From a virus, in the IMG/VR virus record IMGVR_UViG_3300008216_000058, positions 1-27,521 of that record: a stretch of 27,521 bases of DNA. One strand, written 5' to 3'. Below are positions 15,299 to 27,521 of the stretch, one piece after another. The notes below the pieces were generated by a model, which saw nothing but the letters and a program-made list of their open reading frames with translations, did not search any database and was not told the DNA's origin. The position numbers and the translations under genes were made by a program. Each line of letters begins with the position of its first letter. Positions within the stretch are counted from its first letter, which is position 1.

Positions 15299-17833
15299 AT
15301 GTCAAGATTACCAGTAAACCGTAACTTCGTATCCAACGACGCCTCCGAGGCCGCAGAAGACTTAGCGGATGGAGCCAGAAATGGCGACCTAACCGTAACC
15401 GGCAACCTCACGGTGAGCGGAACTACGACAACCGTTAGCACCACCAACCTTGAGATTGAAGACAAGAATATCGAGCTAGCAAAGACCAGCAGCCCAAGCG
15501 ACAGCAACGCTGATGGTGGCGGTATCACGCTCAAAGGCACAACTGACAAAACCATTCTCTGGGAGAATGATGATGACAAGTGGCACTTCAACCAAGGTAT
15601 CGATGTTATTGGCACTGGCTCATTTGCTGGCGCTGCTGCGTCACTATCACAGGGTAACGTTCAGGTTGGCGTTGACTCAGGGGGTGACCCCGGTGGTGAA
15701 CTGATGTTCCATACCGATGATTATGTTGGTCTCCGGTGCGCCGACTCCGGGGCTTTGTCTCTTGCGGTGAAGCCATCCGGCAACGTGGGGATCGGCACAA
15801 CGGCACCGGCTGTAGCCTTAGATGTGATTGGCACTGGCTCATTTGCGGGAGCGGAGGCATCCCTATCACAGGGTAACGTTCAGGTTGGCGTTGACTCGGG
15901 CGGCGACCCCGGTGGCGAGTTGATGTTCCACACGGACGACTACATAGGCATCCGCTGTGCTGATTCAGGCGCACTACCGTTTGCAGTAAAACCATCCGGC
16001 AATGTTGGCATTGGTGATGTTGCTCCCGGCACCCAATTACAGGTGTCAGGCACAGCGCCATACGTGACGCTGAAGAACAGCACAGCAGAGAACACAGCGG
16101 GTGGTTGCGAGTCTAAGATTATCTTCGAGGACCATGCAGACGTAACGCTTGCACAGGTAGAAGGAAGTCACAGCGGAAGCTCGGACGACACCAAGGGTAA
16201 GATGATTCTATCTACCCATACAGGCTCTGCGCTGACTGCTGCTGTTACTATTGATGACGCTCAGGATGTTACCTTTGCTGCGGATATAACTGCGGACGGG
16301 TCTTTGTTTCTCAAGGAAAAGGCAGACGCAGAGGGAGACACCGCCGCATACGGTCAGTTATGGGTCAACACAGCCACTCCTAACGAGCTGTACTTCACGA
16401 CCGATGCCGGTGATGACATCCAGCTCACAGATGGCACGTCTACCTCTGGCGGCGGTGCCGTGTCGGCAGTGGCCAATGGTGTAGACAATCGAATCACTAC
16501 CTTTAGCAGTTCAACAGCCTTAAACGGAGAAGCCAACCTCACCTTCGATGGCTCGACTTTGACCGTTGCTGGCGAGGTATCTGTTGGGAGTGGCAGCGCG
16601 ACAGGCGTTGTCGAGTCCAACGGAAACTATGACTTGAAACTACAGACAGGTAATTCCACAACCGGAAGCATTACAATTACAGACGGTGCGAACGGTGACA
16701 TCGCCATTGAGCCCAACGGAAGCGGGGGTTTTGAGACAACGGCCTACTTCCATCACGAGAAGGGGATCCAAGGCGCTTACACGGCGGTGACCGCGAACAC
16801 AACGCTGAGTGATAGTCACTTTATTATTCAGGCGTCGCGAAGCGCCGAGCTTACGCTACCCGCCGTTGGTTCCGCCGGACGGTGGTACTTCATAACCCGC
16901 ATTGACGATGGTACGTCCGATGGAGCCGTGGAGATTGATGCGGACGGCAGCGAACGAATCGAAGGCAACTCTGAATACCATCTTGAATCTGACGGTGACG
17001 GTGTTGCGCTGTATGACAACGGTGCAATGTGGATTGTCATGTGGGAGAAGAAAGCTCCTACCCGCGCAGGGTTTGCACCGACAGACGTAGAGAACTGTGC
17101 GCTGTGGCTAACGGGTGATGCTGGTCTTACCAAAGACGGTGACCACGTAACCACGTGGGCTGACCAATCCGGTAACAGCAATGACGCCACTGTAATTGGG
17201 AGCTTCGATGGTCCAACCTCAACCACCGGCACTCGGGTGGGCGGATTGGATGCGCTTTTGTTTACGCGGGGAAGCGCTGATGGCAGCTCACTTTACCCAG
17301 ACGGGCAAGCCCTTCGGCTCGCAACGGATATATTTTCTGACAACGATCAACCTTGGACGGTGTTTGTTGTAGTGTCCAGCAGCGGCGACATGACAGCGGG
17401 AACGCACATTATGGGCACCGGCAGCGCTTTAAATACGTTTCTGTACTCCGCAGACGGAAACAGTTTTGGTAAGAAGATTTTTGTAGACAACAGTAGCCAC
17501 GCTGGCATTAACATGACAAACGCACTCGCAGGAACGGAAACTATCAGCGGCCACGTTCTCAATGGCGTAGAAGTTATCATTGGCTCCTACACGGGCGGCA
17601 CCAATGTCAAGCTGGACGGCGGGGGTAGGGCGTGGACTGTCAATGACGATCCTTATGTAGGTGCTGACTATGACTACTCGTTTGCCACAATCGGCGCGTC
17701 TACAGGTGGCGGCACCTCTGCGCTGGCTGATGCCTTTAACGGCACCATGTGTGAGATAATCGCTTATCAGCGCGCACTAGACCACAGTGAAATCATGCTT
17801 GTTCGAGACTACTTACTTAGTCGTTGGACATAG
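15299..17833 (+). CDS. Modular tail fibre with LamG-like C-terminus
   Basis: An 844-residue protein. Residues 29-62 (GDLTVTGNLTVSGTTTTVST, then NLEIEDKNIELAK) and 80-100 (TDKTILWENDDDKWHF) are the shaft motif common in fibres of marine myo- and podoviruses. Residues 102-247 are two near-identical 73-residue repeats. Residues about 250-380 carry further shaft repeats ending LWVNTATPNELYFTTDAGDD. Residues about 505-583 form a small beta domain (AELTLPAV, IEGNSEYHLESDGDG, WIVMWEK). From about 590 to the end, WLTGDAGLTKDGDHVTTWAD and DAFNGTMCEIIAYQRALDHS fit a LamG/concanavalin-like jelly-roll, a likely receptor- or glycan-binding tip. There are three bases between the upstream stop and this ATG. 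Fibre identity is sure; the ligand is unknown. Confidence 0.85.
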   Translation: MSRLPVNRNFVSNDASEAAEDLADGARNGDLTVTGNLTVSGTTTTVSTTNLEIEDKNIELAKTSSPSDSNADGGGITLKGTTDKTILWENDDDKWHFNQGIDVIGTGSFAGAAASLSQGNVQVGVDSGGDPGGELMFHTDDYVGLRCADSGALSLAVKPSGNVGIGTTAPAVALDVIGTGSFAGAEASLSQGNVQVGVDSGGDPGGELMFHTDDYIGIRCADSGALPFAVKPSGNVGIGDVAPGTQLQVSGTAPYVTLKNSTAENTAGGCESKIIFEDHADVTLAQVEGSHSGSSDDTKGKMILSTHTGSALTAAVTIDDAQDVTFAADITADGSLFLKEKADAEGDTAAYGQLWVNTATPNELYFTTDAGDDIQLTDGTSTSGGGAVSAVANGVDNRITTFSSSTALNGEANLTFDGSTLTVAGEVSVGSGSATGVVESNGNYDLKLQTGNSTTGSITITDGANGDIAIEPNGSGGFETTAYFHHEKGIQGAYTAVTANTTLSDSHFIIQASRSAELTLPAVGSAGRWYFITRIDDGTSDGAVEIDADGSERIEGNSEYHLESDGDGVALYDNGAMWIVMWEKKAPTRAGFAPTDVENCALWLTGDAGLTKDGDHVTTWADQSGNSNDATVIGSFDGPTSTTGTRVGGLDALLFTRGSADGSSLYPDGQALRLATDIFSDNDQPWTVFVVVSSSGDMTAGTHIMGTGSALNTFLYSADGNSFGKKIFVDNSSHAGINMTNALAGTETISGHVLNGVEVIIGSYTGGTNVKLDGGGRAWTVNDDPYVGADYDYSFATIGASTGGGTSALADAFNGTMCEIIAYQRALDHSEIMLVRDYLLSRWT
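15602..16039 (+). repeat. Two tandem 219-base coding repeats in the fibre gene
   Basis: Unit 1 is 15602-15820 and unit 2 is 15821-16039, in frame, 73 codons each. Both encode DVIGTGSFAGA, then SLSQGNVQVGVDSGGDPGGE, LMFHTDDY, RCADSGAL and KPSGNVGIG. A 35-base identical block starts at 15644 in unit 1 and 15863 in unit 2. Differences elsewhere are largely at third codon positions, so selection keeps the protein. This repeat could change copy number by recombination. Confidence 0.9.
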
Positions 17834-20389: not shown

Positions 20390-20634
20390 GCGATGAAGCC
20401 GCGAAGAAAATAGTTGGCCTTTTACTCGACAGCCTTCAAGATTCCGCACGCCAGGCGTTACCTAGTTTTGTTTTGGATTCGTGGCTCGCGGCACTCGCAA
20501 ACGTAGTTGAGGCCGGCTTATATCACAGCTGGATTGCTATCGTATCCAACTCCCTTGAGATAGAGGCCGACGTTGTGGAAATTATCGACGAGCGTGAAGG
20601 ACTCACTGAGGCCTCATCCACAAAAGAACATTGA
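20386..20634 (+). CDS. Small unknown protein ending the lysis cassette
   Basis: An 82-residue protein coupled to the previous gene (ATGA). It is helical and amphipathic (AAKKIVGLLLDSLQDSARQA, LDSWLAALANVVEAGLYHSW), with an acidic end. There are no clear membrane spans, motifs or cysteines. It is the last gene before a 52-base gap that separates the lysis block from replication. A lysis regulator or antiholin-like role is only a positional guess. Confidence 0.35.
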   Translation: MSDEAAKKIVGLLLDSLQDSARQALPSFVLDSWLAALANVVEAGLYHSWIAIVSNSLEIEADVVEIIDEREGLTEASSTKEH

Positions 20635-20686
20635 ATTTATTGACAGGTATCCCCCTTGATGGATCGATAAGAGGCTGGAGGTAACT

Positions 20687-22039
20687 ATGTCACGAAGAAG
20701 AATTATAGATCCGTCTTTTTGGGAAGACGAGACCGTAGCCTCATGGCCGCTCGTCTCCCGTCTCACCTATATTGCCCTTTGGAACCACTCTGACGACTAT
20801 GGGTTCGTTAGGGCTGCACCCAGCTATCTACACTCGCGGTGCTTCCCATACGATAACAACATAGACATGAAAGCCGCCCTGGAGCCACTGGTTGCATCCA
20901 ACCGATTGCTGCTCTACCAGGTAAACGGGGAGTCGTATGGACACCTTTCGTCGTTCCTGAAGTGGCAGACGATCAATCGACCCTCAAAAGGGGGTAACCC
21001 AAAAATCGAAGAAGGTTCACGTATTCCTCATGGAGACCTCACTGAGGACATGCTTTTTCAGCAACAACCCCCTGTGTTGTCCCCATCCATCTTTACCGGT
21101 GGCTGGACCCCCCCTGCTGTGACAAAAACGCATGACCGCCCCATGCTCACTGAGGGATACGTGAACGCTCAACCAGCACTCACTCCTGAAGTTAAAGTTA
21201 AGTTAAAACAACCTCTCCCTACGGTCGAGGTTGTGAACGCGCCCGCGCGCGAGGAACAACCACAACCAAATCAAATCATCGAAAATGGGGTAATGCAGAG
21301 CTTGGAGAAGCAGTGGGAGCCCGGTTCGGGTGCTGAGAAGGTGGTAGAGGGTTGGTGGAAGTATTACAACCATCTGGGGCAGCAGGAGAACGCTTGGCAC
21401 ACCAGGGCGTTTGAGACGCACCGAGACCAGCTCTTGCGGGTTCTGAACACTGGTGTAAGCAACAAGGACATGAGGTTGGCGATTACCTACCTCTACCGCC
21501 ACACCCGGCGCCGCTACATGCCAAACGGCGACGACCTTTACCGGCACCCAACAACCTTGTTTGGTCGCATTGACGAGCCGTTTTCAAAACTACAGAACCG
21601 CATTGACACGTTGATGATGGAGGCGGTTATCTGGGAGGATTCTCAACGGCCAGCCACGCCACCACCCGAGCCGGTTGATGCTGCGGAGCTCAAGCGCCAC
21701 CAGCAGTTGGCCGAGGGGTGGTTGGATTGGATAATAACAAACCCTGTCGAGGCGGCTGCGATGGCTTCAGCGAGCGCGCATGAGGGCGCATCTCTTGGCG
21801 CGAAGCAGAAGAGATTGAAGGATTGGACGGCTGAGTTGGAGCGGATAGCAAACAAGGGGGGCAATCTCGACCTTTGCCTCCATAGTCACATTACGCAGGG
21901 CGTTGACGACGGGCTGCGAAAGGAGATTGAGAATGGCGAACGTCCTGGGGTTATACGGAAGATCAAAGTCAGTGAAGGCGAAAGTGAGGAGACGGAGCAA
22001 CAGCAGGTCAATGCGACCGCTGATTCAACGAGGGTCTAA
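20687..22039 (+). CDS. DnaD-like phage replication initiator
   Basis: A 450-residue protein. Residues 1-105 (RRIIDPSFWEDETVASWPLV, then SRLTYIALWNHSDDYGFVRA) are the winged-helix N-terminus typical of phage replication/DnaD-like proteins, which open 'R-IDP-FW-D--v----p--rLlfi-LW--aDd-G'. Residues about 110-205 are a Pro/Gln-rich linker. Residues 205-450 are helical (EGWWKYYNHLGQQENAWHTR and onward) and may contact helicase or DNA. The initiation site GAGG-TAACT-ATG is shared exactly with the gene at 27034. It is the first gene after a 52-base gap, so a transcription unit may start here. It probably nucleates replication at the phage origin. The helicase and polymerase are not in the window. 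Confidence 0.65.
   Translation: MSRRRIIDPSFWEDETVASWPLVSRLTYIALWNHSDDYGFVRAAPSYLHSRCFPYDNNIDMKAALEPLVASNRLLLYQVNGESYGHLSSFLKWQTINRPSKGGNPKIEEGSRIPHGDLTEDMLFQQQPPVLSPSIFTGGWTPPAVTKTHDRPMLTEGYVNAQPALTPEVKVKLKQPLPTVEVVNAPAREEQPQPNQIIENGVMQSLEKQWEPGSGAEKVVEGWWKYYNHLGQQENAWHTRAFETHRDQLLRVLNTGVSNKDMRLAITYLYRHTRRRYMPNGDDLYRHPTTLFGRIDEPFSKLQNRIDTLMMEAVIWEDSQRPATPPPEPVDAAELKRHQQLAEGWLDWIITNPVEAAAMASASAHEGASLGAKQKRLKDWTAELERIANKGGNLDLCLHSHITQGVDDGLRKEIENGERPGVIRKIKVSEGESEETEQQQVNATADSTRV
21921..21926 (+). promoter_or_regulatory. Ribosome-binding site of the 58-residue overlapping gene
   Basis: AGGAGA lies six bases upstream of ATG 21933, inside the initiator coding sequence. It is one of the better ribosome sites in the window and is the main reason for calling this overlapping gene. 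Confidence 0.6.
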
Positions 22040-22776: not shown

Positions 22777-23754
22777 ATGCCCACCAAAACGACGACTACC
22801 TATTCGGCTATTGCCACCTTTCGTAACTGCCGCCAGAAATACAAACACCGCTACCTTGATCTGCTCGAGAAAGACCTGGAAGCCCCGGCTGCGCTTTGGA
22901 TTGGATCCCTGGTTCACGACTGCCTTGAGATGTATCACCGAGGCCAACCGCTCGGGGAAGTCTTAGACTTCATCCAAGACAAAAGGGTAGCCAGTGATAG
23001 CAAGAACTGGATTCAATGCGCGGCGATAATGACCGCCTACGCCCGCAAGTACCCCCAGGAGGATGAATTCAAAATTATCGCCCTGGAGGATGAATTCTGT
23101 GGTCCACTCATCAACCCCACCACCGGCCACAGCTCGACGACTATGGAACTCGCCGGTAAGGTAGATGGCCTGATTCAATATCCCGATGGGAGCCACGCCA
23201 TCTTTGAACACAAGACCACCTCTGAAGACCTTGAGAAATACACCAAACGCCTCTGGAGTGACTTTCAAACACGCTTCTACTGCCAGGAATATGGCCGGTT
23301 CAAGGGCATCAAAATACGAAAAGCACTGTTCAACATCATCAAAAAGAGCGCCATAAAGGGCCGCAAGGGTGAAAGCGAAGAAGACCGCATTGCTCGTATG
23401 GCAGAAGACATCCAGTTCAAGCGGTATTTGTTGTCGTTTGACCCAACCCTGCTGGACGCGATTGGAGAACAGGTCTGGGAACTCAAAGACAATATGCAGA
23501 CCGCGGCTCGTAAAAACAAATACTACCAGAACGAAGACCAATGCAAACACGCCTTTGGCAGCTTCTGTGACTACTATGACCTATGCTCCTCGGGCTTGAA
23601 TCCCATTGTCCGACAATCCCTTTACAGAAAGCGGGAGCGCTCTCATACCGAGCTCTCTCAGAAGGAAACCAATGTTACCCACCAAAACCACCCCGCCAAA
23701 GCGGGACATCAGGGATATATCCCTACTCATATACGGCGACCCAAAGTGGGGTAA
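22777..23754 (+). CDS. RecB/Cas4-like PD-(D/E)XK exonuclease with Fe-S-type cysteines
   Basis: A 325-residue protein. It shows the RecB-family order: C18 (FRNCRQKYKHRY), GSLVHDCLE with H47, D130 (GKVDGLIQY), E144-x-K146 (AIFEHKTT), Q164 and Y168 (DFQTRFYCQ), then C256, C264 and C270 (QCKHAFGSFCDYYDLC). One early plus three late cysteines is the AddB/Cas4 layout that holds a 4Fe-4S cluster. It would resect DNA ends to give single strands for the downstream annealing proteins. The last 28 codons overlap the Sak4-like gene by 83 bases and look like an unstructured tail. A 9-residue repeat (EDEFKIIAL, then EDEF) is visible at residues 95-107. Free-standing nucleases of this type are common in phages. 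Confidence 0.8.
   Translation: MPTKTTTTYSAIATFRNCRQKYKHRYLDLLEKDLEAPAALWIGSLVHDCLEMYHRGQPLGEVLDFIQDKRVASDSKNWIQCAAIMTAYARKYPQEDEFKIIALEDEFCGPLINPTTGHSSTTMELAGKVDGLIQYPDGSHAIFEHKTTSEDLEKYTKRLWSDFQTRFYCQEYGRFKGIKIRKALFNIIKKSAIKGRKGESEEDRIARMAEDIQFKRYLLSFDPTLLDAIGEQVWELKDNMQTAARKNKYYQNEDQCKHAFGSFCDYYDLCSSGLNPIVRQSLYRKRERSHTELSQKETNVTHQNHPAKAGHQGYIPTHIRRPKVG
23058..23097 (+). repeat. Short 27-base direct repeat inside the nuclease gene
   Basis: GGAGGATGAATTC occurs at 23058-23070 and again at 23085-23097, 27 bases (9 codons) apart and in frame, both times encoding EDEF. It may be a small duplication in a loop upstream of the catalytic D130. Confidence 0.6.
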
Positions 23755-26141: not shown

Positions 26142-26348
26142 ATGACGGCAGCGAATCGGACTCAGGCACGCCTGAAAACCTGTATCGACTGCGACCGAAG
26201 CAGTTGGGAAGGGGTCTTCCTGAGATGCAAGGAATGCGGGTGCTTTATGACCGTCAAAGCGGCGATTCCCTGGATGAAATGCCCCATAGGCAAGTGGGGG
26301 CCCGGCAAGGACGTGGAGACCCCTTCAGAGACTCCTGAAGATGGCTAA
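26142..26348 (+). CDS. Six-cysteine mini zinc-binding protein
   Basis: A 68-residue protein from ATG 26142; an in-frame TTG at 26094 would add 16 residues. Cysteines at C14, C17, C29, C32, C34 and C47 (TCIDCDRS, RCKECGCFM, KCPIGKW) form a compact zinc-binding knot. The 'CxxCGCF...K...CP-GKW' arrangement is familiar from tiny uncharacterised proteins of T4-like and marine phages. The end is acidic and probably disordered. No function is established for this type. The ribosome site is weak, so the start is uncertain. Confidence 0.6.
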   Translation: MTAANRTQARLKTCIDCDRSSWEGVFLRCKECGCFMTVKAAIPWMKCPIGKWGPGKDVETPSETPEDG

Positions 26349-26375
26349 ATACTGTCCCTCCCTCAGGGGAGGTAA

Positions 26376-26389
26376 GTATATATATATAC
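26376..26389. repeat. Perfect 14-base TA palindrome
   Basis: GTATATATATATAC is self-complementary and sits at the start of the non-coding stretch after the six-cysteine gene. It is easily melted DNA and contains TATA-type -10-like hexamers. Confidence 0.7.
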
Positions 26390-26480
26390 AATTATTCCAA
26401 TACTCACAAGGGTACCCCCCCTCCGGCCGGCCAGACTCCATTATCTTCCAAGTGCCCGGAATCACTGGGGAAAGAAGCGT

Positions 26481-26502
26481 CACCCCATGGAACCATAGGG
26501 TG
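26481..26502. repeat. Inverted repeat with 10-base arms (operator candidate)
   Basis: Left arm CACCCCATGG (26481-26490), spacer AA, right arm CCATAGGGTG (26493-26502). The arms are complementary except for one position. Length and symmetry fit a dimeric repressor site. A third half-site, ATGGGGTGAT, occurs at 26562-26571. Confidence 0.6.
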
Positions 26503-26610
26503 ATTGGGGACCGAAAGCCTGGCCTAATCGGGGGACTGGTCGGCCATGAGCTCCACGATAGATGGGGTGATCCATACAAGATTCAGCTATTGCCATTCGA
26601 GTCTCAAGCC

Positions 26611-26627
26611 CATAACCTACGGTTATG
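26611..26627. promoter_or_regulatory. Inverted repeat containing the start codon of the RHH gene
   Basis: CATAACC (26611-26617), spacer TAC, GGTTATG (26621-26627): a perfect 7-base inverted repeat whose right arm ends in the ATG of the ribbon-helix-helix gene. It could be a DNA operator for self-repression or an RNA hairpin hiding the start codon. No clear ribosome site is seen otherwise. Confidence 0.55.
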
Positions 26628-26912
26628 CCTACTCGACGTGACCCAAAACCAATCGATGCCACCGTAGGTGAAGTGACCGGTAGCCTGGTTGCACTTGCTA
26701 ACACCAAAGAACCCGAATTGACGCGGCGCCAACAATTGAACGTCAAGCTATCCACTGCAGACTTTCAGCTATTGAATACGCTGCGTAAACACTACGGGCA
26801 TAGCTGGGCTTCAATGGTCTCGAGAATCCTGTGGATGATTGCCCGAACATTACGAACCGGGCGCGATCCATACACAGGTAAACCGCTTGACTGGACCGTG
26901 AACAACGAATAG
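26625..26912 (+). CDS. Ribbon-helix-helix DNA-binding protein (Arc/CopG type)
   Basis: A 95-residue protein. Residues about 37-43 (QLNVKLS) form the DNA-contacting strand, 44-56 (TADFQLLNTLRKH) helix A, and 60-74 (SWASMVSRILWMIAR) helix B, the classic RHH pattern. A 25-residue basic head precedes it and a polar tail follows. Such proteins bind palindromes as dimers and often repress their own gene. This fits the inverted repeats upstream and over its start codon, and the hairpin-like repeats downstream. No strong ribosome site precedes ATG 26625, consistent with control at the start. Fold is moderately sure; targets are inferred. Confidence 0.6.
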   Translation: MPTRRDPKPIDATVGEVTGSLVALANTKEPELTRRQQLNVKLSTADFQLLNTLRKHYGHSWASMVSRILWMIARTLRTGRDPYTGKPLDWTVNNE

Positions 26913-26927
26913 CTTGCAATCTGCAAG
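26913..26927 (+). other. Perfect hairpin directly after the RHH stop
   Basis: CTTGCA, loop ATC, TGCAAG: a 6-base perfect stem starting one base after the TAG (26910-26912). No T-run follows, so it is not a canonical terminator; it may be an mRNA end-stabiliser or operator. Confidence 0.55.
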
Positions 26928-26954
26928 TATAAGAGTAAGGTAGTTGGTAGCTAA

Positions 26955-26975
26955 TCGAATGCTAGATCCATTCGA
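26955..26975 (+). other. Hairpin 1 with CTAGATC loop
   Basis: Stem arms TCGAATG (26955-26961) and CATTCGA (26969-26975) are perfectly complementary, 7 base pairs, around a seven-base loop CTAGATC (26962-26968). The same loop recurs 45 bases downstream on a different stem. Confidence 0.75.
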
Positions 26976-26992
26976 AACAGTGCTGATTTAAC

Positions 26993-26998
26993 TATAAA
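26993..26998 (+). promoter_or_regulatory. Weak -10-like hexamer between the two CTAGATC hairpins
   Basis: TATAAA lies between the hairpins. A poor -35 match (TTCGAA, 26971-26976) is 16 bases upstream. If used, transcription would start near the second hairpin. Low confidence. Confidence 0.2.
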
Positions 26999-27001
26999 GC
27001 C

Positions 27002-27018
27002 GAGCGCTAGATCCGCTC
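27002..27018 (+). other. Hairpin 2 with identical CTAGATC loop
   Basis: Stem arms GAGCG (27002-27006) and CGCTC (27014-27018) close the same loop CTAGATC (27007-27013). It ends six bases before the GAGG ribosome site of the next gene, so an RNA form could influence initiation. Confidence 0.75.
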
Positions 27019-27033
27019 TCAATTGAGGTAACT

Positions 27034-27521
27034 ATGTCAAAGCAAAACACTATCAAGGTCTATGACGGACCGTCTCTTATCGATGGCCAGCGAATTATTG
27101 TCCTGCTAACCGGACTCGCCACGGCATCAACCAACGACAAGACTGGAGACATGCTCCAGACGTGGATCATGCGGTACGGCATCGCGCCGCATGAGGCCGT
27201 CAAGACAGGCGACGACGTCAGCGTATGCGGACAATGTCCATTGCGCCGAGTCCATTACAAAGAGTTGAACGTTTCTAAAAAGCCTTGCTACGTTCTAACC
27301 TTTCAAGCGCCACGTTCGACATGGGTCGCTAACCGTGATTTGGAAGTGACAGAATCGGAAACGGTCCAGTCACTGATAGCAGGCAGGAAAGTCCGCCGTG
27401 GTTCCTATGGTGACCCAAACGCAGTACCGATAGCAGTTTGGACAATGCTCGACAATGGCGAAAGACCTACCGGTTATACCCACCAATGGGAGACGGGCGC
27501 GAACCTTTCAGCCTATGTGAT
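27034..27521 (+). CDS. Conserved phage CxxC protein of unknown function, cut at the window end
   Basis: The frame is open from ATG 27034 to the last base (162 full codons, no stop). GAGG at 27025-27028 is the ribosome site. Visible features are DGPSLIDGQRIIVLLTGLA, then STNDKTGDMLQTWIMR, AVKTGDDVSVCGQCPLRR (C65, C68), CYVLTFQAP (C85), RRGSYGDPNAVP and TGYTHQW. The order 'G..i....T......N.KTGdm.Q..i', 'eAv..G.d.s.CG.C..R', 'CYV', 'G.YGdp...P', 'GYTh.W' matches a widespread uncharacterised phage/plasmid protein as I recall it; no function can be assigned. The three cysteines may hold a metal. It is preceded by the twin CTAGATC hairpins, suggesting specific control. Confidence 0.6.
   Translation, partial: MSKQNTIKVYDGPSLIDGQRIIVLLTGLATASTNDKTGDMLQTWIMRYGIAPHEAVKTGDDVSVCGQCPLRRVHYKELNVSKKPCYVLTFQAPRSTWVANRDLEVTESETVQSLIAGRKVRRGSYGDPNAVPIAVWTMLDNGERPTGYTHQWETGANLSAYV

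Follow-up and report, generated by a model that had tools for sequence, protein, structure and literature searches.

Twin stem-loops with one loop sequence ahead of a phage gene: a possible leader element private to one lineage

Introduction

The lambdoid nut/boxB sites and the put sites of HK022 are small hairpins in the leaders of phage transcripts, close to the 5' end. In the thrS translational operator a single leader carries two stem-loops ahead of the ribosome site, with an anticodon-arm-like 5-bp stem and a 7-base loop; this operator of E. coli was reportedly described by Romby and co-workers in 1996. The SAS and ESAS of cluster K mycobacteriophages are short repeats with inverted symmetry, found just upstream of phage gene starts and of unknown function; an ESAS is one imperfect inverted repeat with 17-bp arms and a 4-13 bp spacer, present at a large number of genes and conserved from phage to phage (PMC3203893).

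The locus described here belongs to a linear phage record in IMG/VR, the whole 27,521-nt stretch of which was analysed and is called the window below. Two stem-loops with the loop CTAGATC precede a gene of the phrog_2554 family (function not known), which occupies 27034..27521 (plus strand), extends past the window end and is referred to as gene 27034. As in thrS, the two stem-loops stand upstream of a ribosome site, with a 7-base loop and, in hairpin 2, a 5-bp stem; unlike in thrS, the downstream gene encodes no synthetase, CUAGAUC, with U at position 37, is unusual for an anticodon loop, and no binding protein is indicated for the hairpins. The likeness to nut/boxB and put lies in small hairpins near a presumed transcript start and in CGCTCTCA at 27014-27021, one base off boxA CGCTCTTA, but the order and the loop are wrong and evidence for an antiterminator is lacking. 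With SAS and ESAS the locus shares inverted symmetry just upstream of a gene start, and its phage also has a recurrent leader, GAGGTAACTATG; the pair differs from them in belonging to one gene, in being two separate hairpins (5- and 7-bp arms) and in not being conserved. An SAS-like repeat family was considered and rejected, the hairpin core occurring at a single leader within the window while only the short leader GAGGTAACTATG recurs.

Results and Discussion

The hairpin pair and its chance level

Hairpin 1 (26955..26975, plus strand) has a 7-bp stem, TCGAATG/CATTCGA, and hairpin 2 (27002..27018, plus strand) a 5-bp stem, GAGCG/CGCTC, around the same CTAGATC loop. They share a 9-base core, GCTAGATCC, at 26961-26969 and 27006-27014, which has these two copies in the whole 27.5-kb window, and the spacing between the hairpins is 45 bases. 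An earlier note made from the letters of the window had described both hairpins with these positions, the shared loop and core and the spacing, and all were found as it had given them; hairpin 2 also ends, as claimed there, about six bases before the ribosome site (hairpin end at 27018, TGAGG at 27024-27028).

A scan for hairpin pairs with stems of at least 5 strict pairs, loops of 3-10, an identical loop and closing pair and a distance of at most 150 bases returned hairpins 1 and 2 as the sole such couple in the window. Dinucleotide shuffles of the window (n=800) contained any same-loop pair in 14 cases and the 9-base core in none. Since the pair is the only one in the scan and no shuffle produced the 9-base core, the twin hairpins are real and hard to put down to chance. 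The 14 shuffles with some same-loop pair, and the many kinds of pattern that were looked for, leave coincidence a little room, yet two copies of a core that no shuffle yielded, together with compensated stem pairs, make it quite improbable.

Several familiar identities were considered for the region. No tRNA or tmRNA gene was found, Rfam covariance models gave no match against 26300-27521 up to E=1, and no relevant paper on CUAGAUC was among the literature matches listed. An intrinsic terminator (GC-rich stem followed by a T run) was rejected, neither hairpin being picked up by a terminator scan. A coding repeat was rejected as well: in gene 27034's frame both cores would be translated as Leu-Asp-Pro, yet two stop codons stand between them, so that the cores are not coding now.

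Comparison of the stems

According to the earlier note the stems are unrelated and differ in nearly every base, a view that came from comparing unaligned stems. Placed in register, the copies TCGAATGCTAGATCCATTCGA and CCGAGCGCTAGATCCGCTCTC agree in 14 of 21 columns (in common, CGA..GCTAGATCC..TC), and of the five pairs formed by both GAATG/CATTC and GAGCG/CGCTC just two are different (A-T to G-C and T-A to C-G). Both differences are double transitions, changed on the two sides with pairing retained, while the outer pairs of copy 1, 1-21 and 2-20, do not form in copy 2. What survives of the proposed covariation within one sequence is these two fully compensated pairs; its extent was overstated. 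In a simulation with four random substitutions sparing the loop, all five pairs stayed intact in about 1.2% of cases, a figure that overstates the evidence because the site was picked out for its pairing. The compensated pairs are mild evidence for selection on structure.

The hairpins occupy a variable slot

The closest relatives form three lineages (G001, L145 and L007), whose neighbouring proteins are 70-97% identical to those of the window. The nearest of them, G001 (IMGVR_UViG_3300025282_000007, 40.9 kb), has five sister contigs. It is for the most part colinear with the window; its gene 27034 protein is 97% identical and its counterpart of the 95-aa protein encoded upstream 81%. The DNA alignment with G001 stops at 26952 and restarts at 27021, and the slot so delimited (26953..27020, plus strand) is exactly the hairpin block. 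In G001 this slot contains a 190-aa membrane-protein-like gene, the start of which is also present in L145; the L007 contig, which begins 299 bases upstream of its gene 27034 copy (protein 70% identical), has a different small ORF there, and the sequence of a further relative, L146, ends short of the slot. Since G001 and L145 carry the membrane-protein gene and L007 another ORF, the content of the slot varies, and in the window it consists of the hairpins.

The hairpins were found in no other genome. GCTAGATC is absent from G001 and its sister contigs, and the CTAGATC loop is absent from the slots of G001, L145 and L007 as far as their sequence covers the region. The 58 upstream regions scanned, out of 80 loci with gene 27034 homologues, contained no CTAGATC pair, and a few of them carry unrelated repeated hairpins; in phage GenBank the homologues appear in 148 records, all below 60% identity. 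A covariance-model search across relatives, upstream of gene 27034 homologues, had been recommended in the earlier note as a check on the element, and in 359 kb it matched only the window's own two copies. The exact 19-base hairpin 1 had zero matches in 2.9 million viral contigs, and when viral contigs (115 stretches) and an 84,980-species genome collection (100 stretches) were searched for the core repeated at a distance of 24-54 bases, no second pair with both stems of at least 5 came up; many of the viral twin-core matches repeat in 9-base steps and are probably coding repeats. The twin hairpins look like a feature private to one phage lineage and not like a conserved new RNA element. Related phages of the same gene order without the loop were to count against the element, and it is indeed missing from relatives that share the flanking genes (with 97% identity in the downstream protein and 72-81% in the putative ribbon-helix-helix protein); but these have an extra gene in the slot, and for this reason none of the relatives found has exactly the window's gene order.

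The exact coincidence of the hairpin block with the window/G001 indel speaks for a scar without function, in which deletion has removed the slot gene and left the hairpins as remnants, or as a short tandem duplication that is still subject to drift. Beginning at the end of the 95-aa gene and including hairpin 1, the window sequence is colinear with the G001 slot gene's leader and initial codons. Window positions 26953-26980 align with the stretch where the lost gene begins (CATTCGAAACAG against CATTC-AAACAG), an extension beyond the promoter region that is of moderate significance only (banded p 0.013, other controls 0.03-0.07); hairpin 1 may overlie the decayed start of this gene. Homology of hairpin 2 with that gene's 3' end was rejected as not significant (p 0.35-0.49). 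Between the hairpins, TGATTTAACTAT (26984..26995, plus strand) may be a copy, since decayed, of the leader TGAGGTAACTAT, which stands at 27024. The likeness (p 0.035 for the downstream part by itself) weakly suggests a duplication reaching beyond the hairpin; the gapped repeat unit extends to TGA..TAACTAT with p 0.0012 overall and 0.035 with the core left out. In such a history the slot gene would have been lost and the leader adjoining the start of gene 27034 duplicated or reshaped. Drift, however, is not expected to give two changes compensated on both sides beside an untouched loop (about 1%, with the selection bias given above), and we consider a functionless scar somewhat unlikely.

The slot also brings to mind core-type sites of a site-specific recombinase, with inverted arms around an identical 7-bp overlap, set as a direct repeat and serving the exchange of slot content. 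The 7-bp common centre, the imperfect inverted arms that differ between the two sites and the location would agree with this, but the arms are very short, no such sites occur at the slot edges of G001, L145 and L007 in the sequence covered, and the recombinase-like gene of G001 and the relative L139 resembles, by sequence, a serine recombinase, which does not use such an architecture. Recombinase sites are thus the least credible of the readings considered.

A leader element of gene 27034

We prefer, with a probability of roughly 0.4, to read the pair as a stem-loop that was duplicated locally within the 5' leader of gene 27034 and is peculiar to this phage lineage, seated in the variable slot. 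Beyond the shuffles and the two compensated changes, it is favoured by position, hairpin 2 being 6 nt ahead of the ribosome site, and by structure prediction, hairpins 1 and 2 being present in the leader's minimum-energy fold as well as in its centroid fold. The homologous leader positions of L145 and G001 are also structured at the gene start, and the relative contig L139 has a different two-copy 36-nt hairpin unit upstream of an early-region ORF. Against the leader element, it is present in a single genome and kept in no relative, and homologues of gene 27034 manage without it, the 97% identical protein having another leader. As a whole the window leader is not more stably folded than shuffles (z -0.46 and -0.68), and no match to a promoter consensus was found in the region. 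The loop CUAGAUC holds CUAG and GAUC, each self-complementary, but its kissing energy is not unusual, 18% of random 7-mers matching or exceeding its self-pairing. Because the leader folds as shuffles do, no partner is indicated and homologues lack the hairpins, the leader element is held at no higher value and the scar described above keeps appreciable weight beside it.

If the pair is a leader element, it would have arisen in the slot where relatives hold an extra gene. With a putative promoter at 26913-26927, on the TTGCAnnnTGCAA repeat, a leader RNA would start near 26945, in which the two small hairpins would fold independently and leave the ribosome site free. They could act as stability or insulating structures, as paired sites for an RNA-binding protein, or as sites for each other's loop. 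We infer transcription, action as RNA rather than DNA and any function of the hairpins; RNA is the most likely active form, since a conserved centre with compensated arms suits hairpins over half-site operators and the pair lies just before the ribosome site. The structured element or operator proposed in the earlier note is plausible in view of the identical loops, the two compensated pairs and the position, whereas the relatives speak largely against a conserved operator. A bolder version would let the identical loops of stem-variable hairpins bind one dimeric protein, or kiss, and so control a phage early gene, as a recent acquisition in the slot of a lost gene; this we regard as a long shot. 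If functional, the pair would show how fast a structured leader can be built by a phage where the gene content of a slot changes from one relative to the next.

Inverted repeats flanking the 95-aa gene

The pair could also act as double-stranded DNA, as two operators for a phage regulator such as the putative ribbon-helix-helix protein encoded next to it. Two dyads spaced by 45 bp, ahead of a gene and beside a small candidate DNA-binding protein, would fit this arrangement. That protein (95 aa; 26625..26912, plus strand) is ribbon-helix-helix-like by eye only, and its assignment to this class in the earlier note could not be upheld: there was no profile match, structure prediction was of low confidence (pLDDT 67, three sequences), and phage GenBank records contained no match to it. 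The unconfirmed fold weighs against the operator pair, as do a conserved centre with variable arms, the reverse of usual half-site recognition, and the fact that relatives with a 72-81% identical protein lack these sites and have kept two other inverted repeats. A DNA operator pair is accordingly an unlikely explanation of the hairpins.

One of the two kept repeats ends exactly on the start of the 95-aa gene (window 26611-26627; L014 2987-3003; L145 5991-6010). It reads CATAACC-TAC-GGTTATG in the window, CATACC-TGAAG-GGTATG in L014 and CATATGCTGG-CCAGCATATG in L145, the dyad being kept while the sequence has changed, and is likely an autoregulatory operator or a start-codon hairpin. The other, CTTGCA-ATC-TGCAAG (26913..26927, plus strand), follows the gene directly and overlaps a -35-like TTGCAA. 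Its dyad is likewise present in the three genomes, as CTTGCAA-C-TTGCAAG in L014 and TGTTGCA-ATC-TGCAACA in L145, where the pair outside TTGCA-NNN-TGCAA is flipped from C-G to G-C; it is a putative promoter or operator of the slot. Judged by sequence comparison, these two repeats are better regulatory candidates than the twin hairpins, since their dyads are kept despite change in three genomes, and they would suit autoregulation by the 95-aa protein together with control of the next gene. The contrast counsels caution: two-copy covariation in one sequence failed the comparison with relatives, and the nearby inverted repeats passed it.

Other elements in the phage group

The ribosome site and start codon of gene 27034, TGAGGTAACTATG (27024..27036, plus strand), have a near-identical counterpart, GGAGGTAACTATG, at 20677-20689 before the replication initiator gene. 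Both belong to a recurrent gene leader, (G/T)GAGGTAACTATG, which stands before several genes of the phage group, at 20677-20689 and 27024-27036 in the window and at 15381 and 22402 of the reversed G001 contig.

In L145 (6300-6355) the start of the slot gene lies in a long hairpin (GGTAGTTCAT-ACTCCG ... CGGAGT-AACT-ATGAACTACC) over the ribosome site and start codon (z -5.3), and at the homologous leader position G001 has a hairpin, TAGTTAGC-TTTAGGAG-GCTAACTA, at the gene start. The two 36-nt units of L139 (3576-3611 and 3642-3677, 89% identical, z -5.1) each contain CTCG-GACAGAT-CGAG, in the first unit within a 17-bp perfect stem.

A conserved non-coding element, TATATATATAT...CTCACAAGGGTACCCCCCCTCC, is present in single copy at 26377-26424 of the window, near base 20463 of the reversed G001 contig, and in L145 and L146. 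Its core is confined to this phage lineage among 2.9 million viral contigs, and the element is a possible origin or promoter. The reversed G001 contig also carries four copies of CAGGTGTTG (at 22978, 23029, 23260 and 23325) between an early gene and a recombinase gene (resolvase-like start MKAILYIRVSTNKQ), which are possible iterons or regulator sites.
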